A stretch of 49,646 nt of DNA from a virus. Shown one piece after another: positions 7,918 to 28,544 of this stretch. Position numbers and translations under genes: made by a program. Location: IMG/VR virus record IMGVR_UViG_3300022591_000519, positions 1 to 49,646 of that record, one strand, 5' to 3'. The stretch's first letter is position 1. The number at the start of each line of letters is the position of its first letter. The notes beneath the pieces are model-generated. The model ran no database searches. It saw nothing but the letters and a program-made list of their open reading frames with translations, and was not told where the DNA came from.

Positions 7918-7925
7918 TATTTAGC
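7918..7925 (-). promoter_or_regulatory. Late promoter box (GCTAAATA), leaderless type
   Basis: TAAATA core overlapping the end of the bilin reductase gene, 7 nt upstream of ATG 7910. No ribosome site is present between box and start. Confidence 0.4.
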
Positions 7926-8586
7926 CTAGTTCTGGGAACAAACTGTAGTTGACGTATGCGGCCGCTTCCTCCGCTGTAAAGCCTAAATGCTGTAAACTAG
8001 CGGGAGTGCGTGGATTTTGCTTTTGATAACGGCAATAGCGATCTTGTACCATTTCATAGGTGGCTACATCTTGTTGCCCTAATCCTACATTAGCTAGATA
8101 AAAATCCAGTGTTTCTAGCCCTAGCTTAATAAACTTGTCTAATTCTTCTTCACCCACCGCACCGATAGCTACCATAGCAGGGCTAAAGATCTGCTTGCCC
8201 CAATCGGGCAGTTCTCTAGGCTTGTTCCACTCTTCCATTGCTACCTTGGCGTTAAACCAAAGCCACATAGGACTTTCTTTATCGCCTGCTAGACTAAAGT
8301 CGTGGAATGCACCGCTTACTTTTGTTGGCCCGCAAACAATATCAAAACCGTAAATAGGGCTAGGGTCGTTAGTGTGGGGAAACACAGTAACGTGTAGTAG
8401 ATAAAGTTTTTTAGTTTCTCTCGCATCTATAATACTAATATGTGCTCTACGATATTTCATAGAGGTATATTCTTTATCAGCTAACAGCTCTGTTCTGAAT
8501 ACACTATTCAGAGCACCTGTCTGAGTAAAACGCCTAGTTATTTCTTCGGCGCAGGCAATAGTTTTATCAAACAAGCTCTGAGTCAT
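7921..8586 (-). CDS. Ferredoxin-dependent bilin reductase (PcyA/PcyX-like)
   Basis: 221 aa. Matches the FDBR family: YGFDIVCGPTKVSGAFHDFS, with Asp96 at the position of the PcyA catalytic Asp105; PMWLWFNAKVAMEEW; and the terminal pattern YCRYQKQNPRTPASL...YVNYSLFPEL. FDBRs reduce biliverdin to open-chain bilins using reduced ferredoxin. The late acidic residue of PebS (in its FGxDW segment) is not evident, so it looks nearer the PcyA/PcyX group than PebS. Phage PcyX enzymes are known to make phycoerythrobilin; the product here cannot be set from sequence. The gene overlaps the heme oxygenase gene by 20 bp, so the two are co-translated. Confidence 0.88.
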   Translation of the reverse strand: MTQSLFDKTIACAEEITRRFTQTGALNSVFRTELLADKEYTSMKYRRAHISIIDARETKKLYLLHVTVFPHTNDPSPIYGFDIVCGPTKVSGAFHDFSLAGDKESPMWLWFNAKVAMEEWNKPRELPDWGKQIFSPAMVAIGAVGEEELDKFIKLGLETLDFYLANVGLGQQDVATYEMVQDRYCRYQKQNPRTPASLQHLGFTAEEAAAYVNYSLFPELG

Positions 8587-9103
8587 AGGTGTGCATTAGT
8601 TTCATTGCCCACTCAAAGGCTACGTTAGCTTCATCACCCATACTATCATTTAATTTAGCACGGATTGCGATTTTAAGAGCATCAACATCTGCAAACTCTA
8701 AATTACGGTGTGGGGGAGGTAAAACTTTTTTAATCATTTGTCCGCCAAACAAATCGCCCATGTGCCATACATACAAGTGTGCTAGAATACGCTCAGGTTG
8801 ATCAACTAGAGTTAGCAAGTATCGAGAATACTCTCCAGTAACAGGGCGCACACGCACCTTGCTCATATCGCCTAGAATTTCTTGCGCATCAAGATATAAG
8901 TGTACGCTACGCTCAATATCTAAAATGTCTAGTGTTAGTTTATTGTAACGGCAAACGTTTTCAATAGTATTATATATTACACTCTTTTGAAATGTGTAAT
9001 CACCCCAAACAGGCACAGGCATGCGTTTTTTAAATACGGCCTGCATAAAGGGTGTTGCCTCTGCGGCTTGGTGACTGTCCCAAGTTAATTCTTTCAAGCT
9101 CAT
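8567..9103 (-). CDS. ho: Heme oxygenase
   Basis: 178 aa HO-1 type enzyme that opens heme to biliverdin, CO and iron. The proximal heme ligand is His11 in TWDSHQAAEATPFM, and the distal-helix signature HLYVWHMGDLFGGQMIKK is intact. It is somewhat shorter than bacterial HO (about 200-240 aa), as in other phage versions. It supplies biliverdin to the bilin reductase whose start lies inside its 3' end. A canonical late box TATAAATA lies 18 nt upstream, with GGAG as ribosome site. Confidence 0.92.
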   Translation of the reverse strand: MSLKELTWDSHQAAEATPFMQAVFKKRMPVPVWGDYTFQKSVIYNTIENVCRYNKLTLDILDIERSVHLYLDAQEILGDMSKVRVRPVTGEYSRYLLTLVDQPERILAHLYVWHMGDLFGGQMIKKVLPPPHRNLEFADVDALKIAIRAKLNDSMGDEANVAFEWAMKLMHTYDSELV

Positions 9104-9121: not shown

Positions 9122-9129
9122 TATTTATA
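9122..9129 (-). promoter_or_regulatory. Late promoter box (TATAAATA) of heme oxygenase
   Basis: Exact match to the T4 late consensus, between the clpS stop and the heme oxygenase ATG. Confidence 0.65.
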
Positions 9130-9459: not shown

Positions 9460-9467
9460 TATTTATA
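9460..9467 (-). promoter_or_regulatory. Late promoter box (TATAAATA) of clpS
   Basis: Exact late consensus 19 nt upstream of the clpS ATG. Confidence 0.65.
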
Positions 9468-9499: not shown

Positions 9500-9934
9500 T
9501 CAACGATGTGTTATTTCAATACGTTTTGGTTTTGCAGATTCTGGTACTTGGCGCTGTAACTTAATAGTTAAAACACCTTTATCAGTAGCCGCACTCATTA
9601 CTTCAATGTATTCAGCTAACGGAAATACACGTTGGAAGTCTCGAGTAGCAAGACCTCGATGTAGATAAACTGTTGAGTCTGATTGTACATCGATATGCTC
9701 TCCTTTAACGACCAAGTGACCGTTAACTACTTCTACAGTAACTTCGTCCGTATCGAAACCTGCGACAGCAATTTGAATTTCATAATTGTCATCGTCGTAT
9801 TTGATTACGTTATGTGGAGGGTAGTTTGTTGAATTTTGAATACGATTTTCAAACTCGTTGAAAATGCTATCAAATCCTATAAGTGCTCTGTTTAGTTGAT
9901 TTAGAGCGGTTGTGTCAAATTTTACAACTTGCAT
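9500..9934 (-). CDS. Small heat-shock protein (Hsp20/alpha-crystallin family)
   Basis: 144 aa ATP-independent holdase. The alpha-crystallin domain spans about residues 40-135 (YEIQIAVAGFDTDEVTVEV, LVVKGEH, FQRVFPLAEYIEV, GVLTIKLQRQVPE) and the start resembles IbpA/B (FDSIFNEFENR). Hsp20 proteins occur in several T4-like cyanophages, where a role in virion assembly has been suggested. The 5' leader has a ROSE-like hairpin over the AAGGAG site. Follows dnaK on the same strand. Confidence 0.93.
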   Translation of the reverse strand: MQVVKFDTTALNQLNRALIGFDSIFNEFENRIQNSTNYPPHNVIKYDDDNYEIQIAVAGFDTDEVTVEVVNGHLVVKGEHIDVQSDSTVYLHRGLATRDFQRVFPLAEYIEVMSAATDKGVLTIKLQRQVPESAKPKRIEITHR

Positions 9935-10026
9935 GTTTTTCTCCTTTTAATAAGCAAGAATAATATTTCGGGCCCTATGCCCTATATAAGGGACCCCTAA
10001 GGCATCCCCTATATTCTTTTGCAGAA
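9935..10026 (-). promoter_or_regulatory. ROSE-like RNA thermometer in hsp20 leader
   Basis: Minus-strand leader. The final hairpin (9960-9939) pairs UUCUUGCU with AAGGAGAA across a UAUUAA loop, leaving one bulged G. UUGCU opposite the Shine-Dalgarno with a bulged G is the hallmark of ROSE thermosensors of small heat-shock genes. Upstream G- and C-rich blocks (AUGCC pairing with GGCAU, plus a GGG/CCC hairpin) could form the extra stems typical of ROSE leaders. Seen by eye, not folded by program. Confidence 0.65.
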
Positions 10027-11928
10027 TTATTTTACTTCTTCAAACTCTGCGTCAACTACGTTCTCAGCTGGCTTCTCACCTTCTGCCGTAGCTTCTGTTG
10101 CTGGTTGCTGTTGTGCGGCCACCTCAGTTTGAATGTCACTTAGGACAGCACTGATGTTACCTACTTGGCTAACCATTTCTTCTTTATCATCACCTTTAGC
10201 GGCTTTTTCTGCGTAGGTTAAGATTTCAGCAATACGATCTACTAGTTTTTTGCTCAACTTGCCTTCGTGTTCTTTTGCTTGCTTCTTAACTTCGCTGATA
10301 CTGTTTTCCAAACCATTACGTGATTGGATTAACTCAAGTTGCTTCTTATCTGCTTCAGCATTAGCTTCTGCTTCTTGAATCATCTTTTCAATTTCAGCTT
10401 CGCTCAATCCGCTATCTGATTTGATAGTGATCTTGTTTTCTTTGCCTGTGTTCTTATCTTTGGCGCTTACGTGTAGAATACCGTTGGCGTCAATGTCAAA
10501 TGTAACTTCAATTTGTGGAACACCGCGTGGTGCTGTTGGAATACCTTCTAAATTGAACTCGCCTAACAATTTGTTGTAAGCAACTAGTTCACGTTCACCT
10601 TGGAACGCTTTAATTGTAACAGCAGGTTGATTGTCTTCAGCAGTTGAGAATACTTGTGTGTGCTTTGTTGGGATAGTTGAGTTCTTCTTAACCATCTTAG
10701 TCATAACACCGCCCATTGTTTCAATACCCAAGCTCAATGGAGTAACGTCTAACAATAGAACGTCAGTACGTCCACCGCTTAGAACTTGACCTTGAATAGC
10801 GGCACCAACTGCTACTGCTTCGTCTGGGTTAACGTCCTTGCGTGGAGCCTTGCCAAAGAATTCTTGAACTGTATCTTGAACTTTAGGCATACGTGTTTGA
10901 CCACCGACAAGGATAACTTCATCAATGTCTTCTGGTTTAAGTTGAGCATCTAGTAAACATTGTTTACATGGTTGCATAGAACGAATGATTAGTTCGCCAA
11001 CTAGTTCTTCAAACTTAGCACGTGTAAGTCTCAAGTTCAAATGCTTAGGACCATCTGCGGTTGCAGTGATGTAAGGCAAGTTAATGTCTGTTTGTTGTGA
11101 GCTGGACAATTCAATCTTGGCTTTTTCAGCGGCTTCTTTCAAACGCTGTAGTGCTAGTACGTCTTTAGTTAAGTCAAAACCTTGTTCTTTCAATGTTTCG
11201 CTTACTGTCCAATCCATAATGGCTTGGTCAAAGTCTTCACCGCCCAAGAATGTGTCGCCGTTAGTGGCTAATACTTCAATTTGTGTATCGCCATCTACGT
11301 TAGCAATTTCAATAATGGAGATATCAAATGTACCACCACCTAAGTCGTATACGGCAACTTTACGGTCTTGCTTGCTAACTTTATCTACACCATATGCTAG
11401 TGCGGCCGCTGTTGGCTCGTTGATAATACGTAGAACTTCTAGGCCTGCAATCTTACCTGCATCCTTGGTAGCTTGACGTTGGCTGTCATTGAAGTAAGCA
11501 GGAACTGTAATAACTGCTTGAGTAACTTCTTCACCTAGATAGTCTTCAGCGGTCTTTTTCATCTTGCGCAAGATTTCTGCTGAAATTTGTGGAGGTGCTA
11601 ATTTTTCATCACGTTGTTGAATCCAAGCATCACCGTTCTCTGCTTCGATGATTTTATAAGGCATCAAGTCGATGTCTTTCTGGACTTCTTTTTCTTTGAA
11701 TTTACGACCGATTAAACGCTTGCTAGCATAGATCGTGTTTTTTGCGTTAGTAACTGATTGACGCTTTGCAGTTGCGCCTACTAAAATTTCACCTGGGTCA
11801 GTGTACGCAACAATACTTGGAGTAGTGCGAGCACCTTCTGAATTTTCAATTACTTTTGGTGTTGTACCTTCGATAATAGCAACACAGCTATTTGTTGTAC
11901 CTAAGTCGATACCGATTACTTTACTCAT
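10027..11928 (-). CDS. dnaK: DnaK (Hsp70) chaperone
   Basis: 633 aa from ATG 11928, chosen because AAGGAG sits just upstream and the protein then begins [15 protein letters not shown]; the frame stays open 15 codons further but inside the leader. The full Hsp70 set is present: phosphate-1 loop [39 protein letters not shown], the [12 protein letters not shown] linker and substrate domain, and an EEVK tail lacking the final residues of E. coli DnaK. ATPase and substrate domains look intact. A bacterial-type DnaK is uncommon in phages. No dnaJ or grpE is seen here, so it would need host cochaperones. It has both a sigma70 and a late promoter and a ROSE-like hairpin. Confidence 0.96.
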
Positions 11929-12010
11929 TTTATTCTCCTTGATTAAGCGAGTATATATTTTGGCTCTTGCCACTGTAAGACCCTTACGGCGTCCTACAAT
12001 AGTATTTATA
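11929..12010 (-). promoter_or_regulatory. dnaK leader with ROSE-like hairpin
   Basis: The hairpin at 11951-11935 pairs CUCGCUU with AAGGAG across an AAUC loop with one bulged G, matching the UYGCU rule of ROSE elements. Two perfect small hairpins lie upstream in the leader (GTAAG-GGT-CTTAC and GGC-AAGA-GCC). Weaker than the hsp20 case because the loop is only 4 nt and the stem 6 bp. Confidence 0.5.
12003..12010 (-). promoter_or_regulatory. Late promoter box (TATAAATA) of dnaK
   Basis: Exact late consensus 74 nt upstream of the dnaK ATG, just downstream of the sigma70 -10 element. Confidence 0.6.
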
Positions 12011-13569: not shown

Positions 13570-14160
13570 TTAGAAACCGCGTGTGTAACCGATCTCAACA
13601 CCATTAGTGCTAGAGTCGCCACGTTTCTGGAAGTACTTAACTTCAACTAAGTCGTTCTTAGTAACTGCATAACCTGCACCAACTTTCGCTGTGCGTGTTA
13701 GGTAGTTGTCGCTGTCGCTAAAACCATTACGGAAGCGATAGCTGGCTAATGCGCTTAGTTGTGGAGTAATCATGTACTCAGCCTTTGGCTCAACTGTGTA
13801 GTAACCAAAGTCAACAGTCTTACCTGCAGAGTTAGTGCCATTCAATACTTGACCAACGCCAAGTCGAGCACCTAAATGCAAGCCTGGATAAACTTCATAC
13901 AACTTTTGAGCACGAGCTTCAACTGTGTTCTCAAGAGCGTTGTTGTTACCAGATACTTGACCGTCATCACGGCTACCACCAAACTGGATGTCAGCTTTAA
14001 TGCCGTTATCAAATTTGTAGTATGGTGCTACCTTAATTGTGTTTGACATTGTGTTAGGTGATGCTGTACCACGCTCACGTTCAAACTCAAAAGATACACC
14101 TGAACCTGCGAAAGCAGATGCACTTGCGGCCAAAGCCAAGATTGCGAAGATTTTCTTCAT
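13570..14160 (-). CDS. Outer-membrane beta-barrel protein
   Basis: 196 aa. Signal peptide MKKIFAILALAASASAFAG, then alternating amphipathic strands (YYKFDNGIKADIQFGG, LHLGARLGVGQVLN, YTVEPKAEYMI, LSALASYRFRNGF, TAKVGAGYAV) and a C-terminal Phe (IGYTRGF), the signal for BAM insertion. The size fits an 8-10 strand barrel. Barrels are rare in phages; possible roles are receptor masking (superinfection exclusion) or a pore for infected cells. Last gene of the operon, 11 bp after the permease gene. Confidence 0.85.
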   Translation of the reverse strand: MKKIFAILALAASASAFAGSGVSFEFERERGTASPNTMSNTIKVAPYYKFDNGIKADIQFGGSRDDGQVSGNNNALENTVEARAQKLYEVYPGLHLGARLGVGQVLNGTNSAGKTVDFGYYTVEPKAEYMITPQLSALASYRFRNGFSDSDNYLTRTAKVGAGYAVTKNDLVEVKYFQKRGDSSTNGVEIGYTRGF

Positions 14161-14171
14161 TTTGTATTTCC

Positions 14172-15218
14172 TTAAATTAAAAAAGTTATTGTAGCAGAAA
14201 CTGCTAACAATAGCAAGGCCCAGATTCCCAGCGCCTTGTAATAAGTGGCGACTGGTGTACCAAAATAGCGATTACCAATCATAACACACTTATGCGTCGG
14301 ACTTAACAAGTAACCGGCAAAGTCGATAGCAAAGAACCAGAGGAAGTATTCTACCCCAAAGACCTGCGCCATTAAAACTGCCACGGCAATGAACTTGCCT
14401 GAACTACCCATTAAGAAACTTACAACAAATCCAATAACCGAAATTGCCAACATACCAACAAAGGTCTTTGGATCTAGTCCAATACCCTTGATCATAGCTA
14501 GGAATTCGCCGTTATAGGACTTGAAGTAATTGCCTAAGATGATAACTGCACCTACCCATACTAGAACATCCCAACGAATGTAGCCTAACAACTTCTTAGG
14601 ATTCCATTGTTGTGTGATGATCACATAGTATAAGGTCAGTAGACCAAAAATTGCAAACACATGTTCTTCTCCGCCTGCCCAAATGTATACGCCAAGGGCG
14701 ATAAACATCGGAAGCACGTTTCGTAAAACTGCTGACAATTTAAAGTTACCCGGAGTAATTACCAATTCTTCATCTTTGACTTGCGTCCAGATGTAGATGC
14801 TGATGAACAGCACACTGGCAATTAACAAGGGTGCAACCAGGCCAATGAATGCACTATAAGTCAATCCAAATGCCGCGATAGGTAGGATTACAGTTTTCTC
14901 TAGCGGGCTCCACATATAATAGTGATGCGTTGCTAGATAGTCTACAATACCTAGTTTTTCACGACCAGGACCATCTTTAGGTGCAACTGTATCCAGCAAG
15001 CCTGCTGAAACAGTAACACGGCCTTCTATTGGAAGAATACCTCCAATAGCACTTAGGAGTACTACTACGAATTTATTACTGCGGAATGTATTTCTAACAT
15101 AGGCAAACGCTGGGGCAAAAAGATAATACTCTTTTGCTAATCCAGCGGTGATCATAATGAAGAAGATCATCCACAAGTATGTAATGTCCTTTAGCAGGAC
15201 AGAAGTTATAAACTCCAT
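14172..15218 (-). CDS. Polytopic membrane transporter-like protein (resembles DUF401)
   Basis: 348 aa with about 9-10 hydrophobic segments over the whole length. Conserved-looking loops GGILPIEGRVTVSAGLLD, a HHYYMWSPLEKTVILP helix and LLSPTHKCVMIGNRYFGTP suggest a permease of the DUF401/ion-transporter type; I am not certain of the family. Strong AAGGAG ribosome site. Upstream is a CTTATGG-AAAA-CCATAAG hairpin. Probably co-transcribed with the outer-membrane barrel, giving one protein for each membrane. Confidence 0.65.
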   Translation of the reverse strand: MEFITSVLLKDITYLWMIFFIMITAGLAKEYYLFAPAFAYVRNTFRSNKFVVVLLSAIGGILPIEGRVTVSAGLLDTVAPKDGPGREKLGIVDYLATHHYYMWSPLEKTVILPIAAFGLTYSAFIGLVAPLLIASVLFISIYIWTQVKDEELVITPGNFKLSAVLRNVLPMFIALGVYIWAGGEEHVFAIFGLLTLYYVIITQQWNPKKLLGYIRWDVLVWVGAVIILGNYFKSYNGEFLAMIKGIGLDPKTFVGMLAISVIGFVVSFLMGSSGKFIAVAVLMAQVFGVEYFLWFFAIDFAGYLLSPTHKCVMIGNRYFGTPVATYYKALGIWALLLLAVSATITFLI

Positions 15219-28103: not shown

Positions 28104-28128
28104 AAAAAGAAACCCGCCGGAGCGGGTT
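28104..28128 (-). terminator. Terminator of the tmRNA gene
   Basis: Minus strand AACCCGC-TCCG-GCGGGTT then TCTTTTT. The stem start overlaps the CAGAAC that can pair with the acceptor piece. Confidence 0.8.
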
Positions 28129-28420
28129 CTGCTATTTTGGATGACAAGGTATAACTACCTCGCAAGAGCGGTTTCTTAGGCCGCTAGTTCGAACGCGAAG
28201 TCGTTGCTAGCAACTTCTTCTACGCTGAATGTCTTGAATTCAAATGTTTTTGCATTTGTAGTTTTTGCTTCTACGGCCGGGAAACCCCAACCCTACGGCT
28301 TCTGCTTTGCCGAGCTGTCCACTTCAATACTCTTTGCCCTGTCGAAACCAATGCACCCCCACCTAAATATACCTTATACACTTAGGTGGAGGTGGGCGGG
28401 GTCGAACCGCCGTCCAGAAC
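28126..28420 (-). ncRNA. ssrA: Circularly permuted two-piece tmRNA (ssrA)
   Basis: On the minus strand the acceptor piece comes first (28420-28387: T arm GGCGG-TTCGACC-CCGCC, then CACCTCC and discriminator A), followed by a 26-nt spacer and the 5' piece starting GGGGGTGCATTGGTTTCGACAGGG broken as usual (28360 down). GGGGGTG and CACCTCC pair over 7 bp, and ACCTAA/TTAGGT extends the stem across the spacer, forming a processing loop. CCA is not encoded. The tag reads from GCA at 28268 to TAA at 28176: begins AKTTNAKTF, ends ASNDFAFELAA, up to 30 aa, longer than the usual 8-20. The resume codon follows TAGAA, like UAGUC in E. coli. Permuted tmRNAs are known in alphaproteobacteria, some betaproteobacteria and cyanobacteria. 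Confidence 0.92.
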
Positions 28421-28454
28421 ACTTTTTTCTCTGCTTCATACAGCAATAACTTAT

Positions 28455-28483
28455 ACTATACTATCTTTTGACAAGCCCGTCAA
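28455..28483 (-). promoter_or_regulatory. Sigma70 promoter of the tmRNA gene
   Basis: TTGACG, 17-bp spacer, TATAGT on the minus strand, about 28 nt before the acceptor piece. Confidence 0.75.
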
Positions 28484-28544
28484 GATGATCCTTGCCCAAT
28501 CTCAACTAGACACGCTACGCGAGTACGCTTTCCGGGTACTGTAT

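Follow-up and report, generated by a model that had tools for sequence, protein, structure and literature searches.

Short ROSE-like RNA thermometers precede the small heat shock protein gene ibpA in Pseudomonas, where a stable hairpin I is followed by a Shine-Dalgarno (SD) hairpin with the motif U(U/C)GCU; thermosensing is proven there, only hairpin II is thermoresponsive, and the role of hairpin I was left open (PMC3669281). The Rfam family ROSE_3 (RF02523) likewise has two hairpins before small heat shock protein (sHsp) genes, namely a hairpin I of the form UGCC..GGG with a bulged G and an SD hairpin, CUCGCU/AGGAG, also with a bulged G. In E. coli, the IbpA protein binds its own 5'UTR and represses itself, for which Arg93 and an aromatic residue at position 34 are required, the R93K protein being inactive; the RNA feature that is recognised was left undefined (PMC10474464). 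RNA thermometers are also known at the start of phage genes, as in lambda cIII, SPbeta blyA and Caudoviricetes sigma70, of which blyA and sigma70 are described as fourU-type, and none was reported there as ROSE-type or as controlling chaperones (PMC11182007). We found no report of ROSE elements in phages in the open-access literature.

Here we describe such an element in a 49.6-kb phage record from IMG/VR (49,646 nucleotides, hereafter the window). On sequence evidence, the leader before its hsp20 gene is a genuine, widespread ROSE-type element that also precedes dnaK. Elements of this kind are apparently unreported in phages, yet they stand ahead of almost every hsp20 examined, from metagenomic jumbo phages to cultured cyanophages. 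The main surprise is a coupling between the two hairpins, across the two genes and with a single residue of Hsp20, a link that appears to be unreported.

Anatomy of the hsp20 and dnaK leaders

The 92-nt gap between dnaK and hsp20, on the minus strand, holds three hairpins, with the hsp20 ATG at 9934. The features of this leader and its gene are as follows.

9932-10012, minus strand: ROSE-like leader element of hsp20 (both hairpins up to the AUG); covariance model R1, 48.9 bits, E = 2.7e-12
9984-10014, minus strand: first hairpin (hairpin I) of the hsp20 leader, in which G10003 bulges out between U10004.G9994 and C10002-G9995, with CC/GG and a UUAG loop; from the sequence, the homologous hairpin covarying in 35 and in 105 leaders
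9970-9982, minus strand: optional middle hairpin GGGC-AUAGG-GCCC, from folding; present in some relatives only
9939-9960, minus strand: SD hairpin of hsp20, in which the anti-SD CUUGCUU faces AAGGAG (9946-9941) and G9955 bulges out; from sequence, fold and motif
9500-9934, minus strand: hsp20, 144 aa; Pfam HSP20 E = 5.7e-19, PHROG Hsp20, alignment to IbpA
9763-9761 and 9643-9641, minus strand: hsp20 codons for Ala58 (IbpA Ala54) and Arg98 (IbpA Arg93); alignment to IbpA

An earlier note, made from the bare sequence, had proposed a pairing of UUCUUGCUU and AAGGAGAA at the ribosome site of hsp20 that leaves a single bulged G. This pairing is borne out by the minus-strand sequence and by RNAfold, which gives the same helix, with U9960-A9939, U9959-A9940, C9958-G9941, U9957-A9942 and U9956.G9943 on one side of the bulged G9955 and C9954-G9944, U9953-A9945 and U9952-A9946 on the other. 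A second bulged-G hairpin (9984-10014) lies within the stretch that the note covered and had been overlooked. For the core pattern CTTGCTTAN{1,4}AAGGAGA the window gives a single match where shuffles predict 0.00, and the 111-nt hsp20 leader folds more stably than its shuffles (z -2.75). Chance pairing as the source of the element was ruled out by this expectation together with the scrambled-motif control given below.

Hairpin I is supported by covariation. In alignment A2, which comprises 35 leaders, is sequence-based, not structure-fitted, and excludes the window and its nearest relatives, seven of nine hairpin I pairs have changed on both sides, with a covariation score of 0.463 against 0.213 for shuffled and at most 0.173 for slid versions; RNAalifold recovers the hairpin unaided. 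Covariance model R1, made from A2 and hence without this phage or its nearest relatives, finds two copies in the window, the one before hsp20 and a second, missed previously, before dnaK. R1 also matched 14158-14208 (E = 0.0076), where the bulged-G motif is missing, and this third match was taken as chance. The dnaK copy and its surroundings comprise the following features.

10027-11928, minus strand: dnaK (Hsp70), immediately upstream of hsp20 on the same strand; Pfam HSP70 E = 1.2e-251
11926-11999, minus strand: ROSE-like leader element of dnaK; R1 45.7 bits, E = 2.3e-11, below gathering for Rfam ROSE
11974-11998, minus strand: first hairpin (hairpin I) of the dnaK leader, with G11990 bulged; sequence and R1 alignment
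11935-11951, minus strand: SD hairpin of dnaK, in which CUCGCUU faces AAGGAG (11940-11935) and G11948 bulges out; sequence and R1
12003-12010, minus strand: TATAAATA, -10 box of a T4-type late promoter, immediately ahead of the dnaK element; from the sequence

The genes on the minus strand run dnaK, hsp20, then clpS, heme oxygenase and bilin reductase. In 67 of 69 dnaK leaders, the window's included, the late promoter motif ATAAATA stands no more than 25 nt ahead of hairpin I, and since the box stands only a few bases from hairpin I, the latter is probably near the 5' end of the mRNA. Ahead of the window's hsp20 leader a T4-type late promoter box was looked for and none was found, which suggests that hsp20 is co-transcribed with dnaK.

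The designation as ROSE-like in the earlier note holds for motif, two-hairpin layout, position and gene: in both window copies U(U/C)GCU pairs imperfectly with the SD and leaves one bulged G, the layout is one of two to four hairpins with the SD in the last, and the element precedes a small heat shock protein gene (Pfam HSP20, PHROG Hsp20). It does not extend to Rfam membership at the curated cut-off, as the hsp20 copy scores 18.2 bits with ROSE (RF00435, gathering 45) and 14 bits with ROSE_3 (gathering 43), and the dnaK copy 17.1 and 13.6 bits, respectively. With both window copies below threshold, the Rfam search was dropped as proof of membership; the related viral-contig loci L007 and L048 exceed the ROSE_3 gathering threshold. 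Thus, judged by its sequence, the window element has the anatomy of ROSE and does not pass the formal Rfam test. It shares with ROSE_3 the two hairpins, their bulged Gs and the position before an sHsp gene; unlike ROSE_3, the window copies are AT-rich, have the optional middle hairpin and also stand before dnaK, and related phages have an A-bulge branch. The stable hairpin I followed by a U(U/C)GCU-bearing SD hairpin is likewise that of the Pseudomonas ibpA leaders (PMC3669281), whereas thermosensing, proven for those, is putative in the phage leaders. In the E. coli ibpA leader (L646), read by eye, the hairpin preceding the SD hairpin apparently also has a bulged G (GACCU-G-UCC..GGA-AGGUC), and bulges in both hairpins may be a general trait of ROSE elements.

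Occurrence of the element

When IMG/VR was scanned for exact matches to the core pattern, 75 of the 80 loci stood directly ahead of the start codon of an HSP20 or DnaK gene; in the same database a scrambled pattern (GC swapped to CG) gave chaperone starts at 0 of 80 matches and a bulged-A version at 7 of 80. When bacterial genomes were scanned with the core pattern, an hsp20 start followed at 10 of 80 matches. Leaders were also gathered from viral contigs through relatives of the Hsp20 protein, with the leader itself ignored, and 77 of these 85 have U(U/C)GCU..AGGA at the start codon, most of the others having U(U/C)ACU, that is, a bulged A. Copies before dnaK are common among relatives, and R1 matches only one or two sites in each whole phage record (118-470 kb), at hsp20, dnaK and, in two records, a small phasin-like gene. 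Carriers include named cyanophages, a pelagiphage and a rhizobial phage, the cultured phages with the element before hsp20 being S-SM2, Bellamy, Phosso, C48C1, P-HM2 and HTVC115P.

Single copies were seen in other phages before groES, rubredoxin and genes for phasin-like proteins of 76-90 aa (L048 446-501, L107 2228-2283, L139 4042-4096, L091 2801-2862 on the minus strand, L757 and L758). In Prochlorococcus phage P-HM2 (L652), the start annotated for hsp20 falls ahead of the element rather than after it, and the deposited start codon is probably wrong. Genes resembling ibpA also occur in records named Campylobacter or Salmonella phage (H1-H5); several of these are bacterial-sized contigs or unannotated fragments, and the records may be bacterial sequence.

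Coupled bulges and residue 54 of Hsp20

Among 312 distinct leaders, the bulged bases of hairpin I and SD hairpin are A/A in 60 and G/G in 194, and once the odd cases had been read by eye the only true discordances were L083 and L174, in both of which the bulged base is A in hairpin I but G in the SD hairpin. The agreement extends across genes, as the hsp20 and dnaK leaders of the same phage are of one type in 59 of 59 loci (31 G/G, 28 A/A) and again in 30 of 30 new loci (8 G/G, 22 A/A). Copying cannot explain the coupling because hairpin I and SD hairpin differ in sequence, and avoidance of TGCY at the DNA level as the cause of G-to-A bulges was ruled out, A-type loci not being depleted in TGCC/TGCT. 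The simplest reading is that one factor reads all four bulges.

The bulge type is matched within the Hsp20 protein. Of 43 A-type Hsp20s, 42 have Thr at the residue aligned to IbpA position 54, and none of 201 G-type Hsp20s does; the next-best column is far weaker, and the sole exception, L073, is a misparse without a real A bulge. In 44 leaders fetched later, largely from the same clades as the first set, Thr goes with A in 30 of 30 and Ala with G in 14 of 14 (L698 was read by hand), and proteobacterial sHsps combine Ala54 with G/G in 21 of 21 fully parsed cases. Phage Hsp20s keep Arg93 in 235 of 244, in addition to Tyr/Phe34, and the window Hsp20 has Arg and Tyr at these positions; Arg93 is replaced by Lys in 9 of the 201 G-type proteins, which, the E. 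coli R93K protein being inactive, counts against IbpA-like binding by Hsp20. An AlphaFold model of the window Hsp20 (mean pLDDT 69.7) places residue 58 directly after strand E50-56 and Arg98 directly before strand E100-106.

Given the match at residue 54, the binding of E. coli IbpA to its own leader and the retention of Arg93 in phages, we propose Hsp20 as the reader of the bulges. As in the E. coli system (PMC10474464), Arg93 and the aromatic residue are retained and the leader is of the bound kind; unlike in that system, a recognised RNA feature is proposed for the phage, namely the bulged purine read with residue 54, and dnaK is a second target. We infer Hsp20 binding, repression and heat response, and consider it fairly probable that phage Hsp20 recognises both hairpins and represses translation of hsp20 and dnaK until heat or misfolding titrates it. 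The two-hairpin ROSE-type leader would thus control translation of both chaperone genes. In the SD hairpin, the anti-SD shuts the ribosome site imperfectly, with a U.G pair and one bulged purine, and a bulged purine of this kind also stands in hairpin I. Hsp20 would bind both hairpins through their bulges and keep the leader closed, residue 54 (IbpA numbering) matching the bulged base as Ala with G and Thr with A. Heat, or Hsp20 being drawn to misfolded protein late in infection, would open the SD hairpin, which is predicted to be weak on its own, and both chaperones would then be produced on demand.

Alternative explanations

A protein-free RNA thermometer, in which the SD hairpin melts with heat and hairpin I merely aids folding or mRNA stability, seems to us rather unlikely. 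Motif and two-hairpin layout are as in the proven Pseudomonas thermometers, where hairpin II alone responds, and in nearest-neighbour folding the SD of the window leader, folded alone, opens gradually from 4 to 50 °C. Once the first 35 nt of the gene are folded along with it, the anti-SD is partly paired with AUGCAAG and the warm-opening is lost; AAGGAG at low temperature, which the earlier note would have taken as refuting when open, is open in some folded stretches and closed in others. Across 111 leaders, the SD was neither better hidden nor more heat-opened than in other genes or shuffled leaders, in folding with energy models that are poor for bulged hairpins. Thermal folding, which depends on the stretch folded and does not set the leaders apart from controls, neither establishes nor refutes a thermometer. 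The pairing of CUUGC with the AUGCAAG of the hsp20 start was ruled out as a designed switch, since that start is not kept in other phages. Melting alone also leaves unexplained both the joint changes of the bulges, between hairpin I and SD hairpin and between hsp20 and dnaK leaders, and their link to residue 54. The suggestion in the earlier note that the chaperone responds to temperature without a regulator protein is thus not supported: the folding is equivocal, the joint change of the bulges and the Hsp20 residue that goes with it speak for involvement of a protein, and a protein-free account is probably incomplete as well as unproven.

The protein could be another RNA-binding factor, of host or phage, with residue 54 varying through shared ancestry or exchange of dnaK-hsp20 cassettes. 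The A type needs four changes on the Hsp20 tree, and a single origin appears in 0% of bootstrap trees, but an AU test on this short tree does not reject a single A-type origin (p 0.144), and leader and gene can move jointly. The DnaK tree points the other way, as A and G types are interleaved on it and nine changes are needed, at least three of them forced by supported branches. In all 61 rows of this tree the residue at position 54 is the one expected from the dnaK leader type, and it follows every independent contrast, three on supported branches and eight on all branches, whereas residue correlations at other positions failed on independent contrasts. The two-sided sign test for eight of eight contrasts would give 0.008, which is not decisive alone because residue 54 was chosen post hoc among about 150 columns. 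As IbpA is, in addition, already known to bind such leaders, we regard a different factor as distinctly improbable and retain Hsp20 as the proposed reader. That hairpin I marks a transcript end or serves processing or stability, with no part in control and with the SD hairpin incidental, is hardly credible, for although the late promoter lies where hairpin I may form the mRNA 5' end and transcripts can be stabilised by a 5' hairpin, no T run follows hairpin I in the window and the bulged anti-SD persists in leaders that have diverged and occurs specifically at chaperone genes.

Implications and further observations

We are evenly divided over a wider reading of the Hsp20 model, namely that phage sHsps read a one-letter mRNA code, a bulged purine displayed twice and read as G by Ala54 and as A by Thr54, that several lineages switched wholly to A, which would insulate their control of chaperones from host IbpA, and that dnaK and, in single phages, groES, rubredoxin and small phasin-like genes belong to the same translational regulon. 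If true, this would amount to a specificity code between protein and RNA that lies in one residue and one base, and to a chaperone regulon under translational control by a small heat shock protein. The purpose of ROSE hairpin I, and the RNA feature that sHsps recognise when repressing their own mRNA, are now testable.

Further late-promoter-like TATAAATA boxes lie on the minus strand at 9460-9467 before clpS and at 9122-9129 before heme oxygenase. The genes for heme oxygenase and a ferredoxin-dependent bilin reductase (7921-9103, minus strand) adjoin clpS and the chaperones and correspond to a phage bilin pathway. The window also holds a phage tmRNA at 28108-28497 (minus strand) that matches the Rfam permuted and betaproteobacterial tmRNA models, a hint of a betaproteobacterial host.
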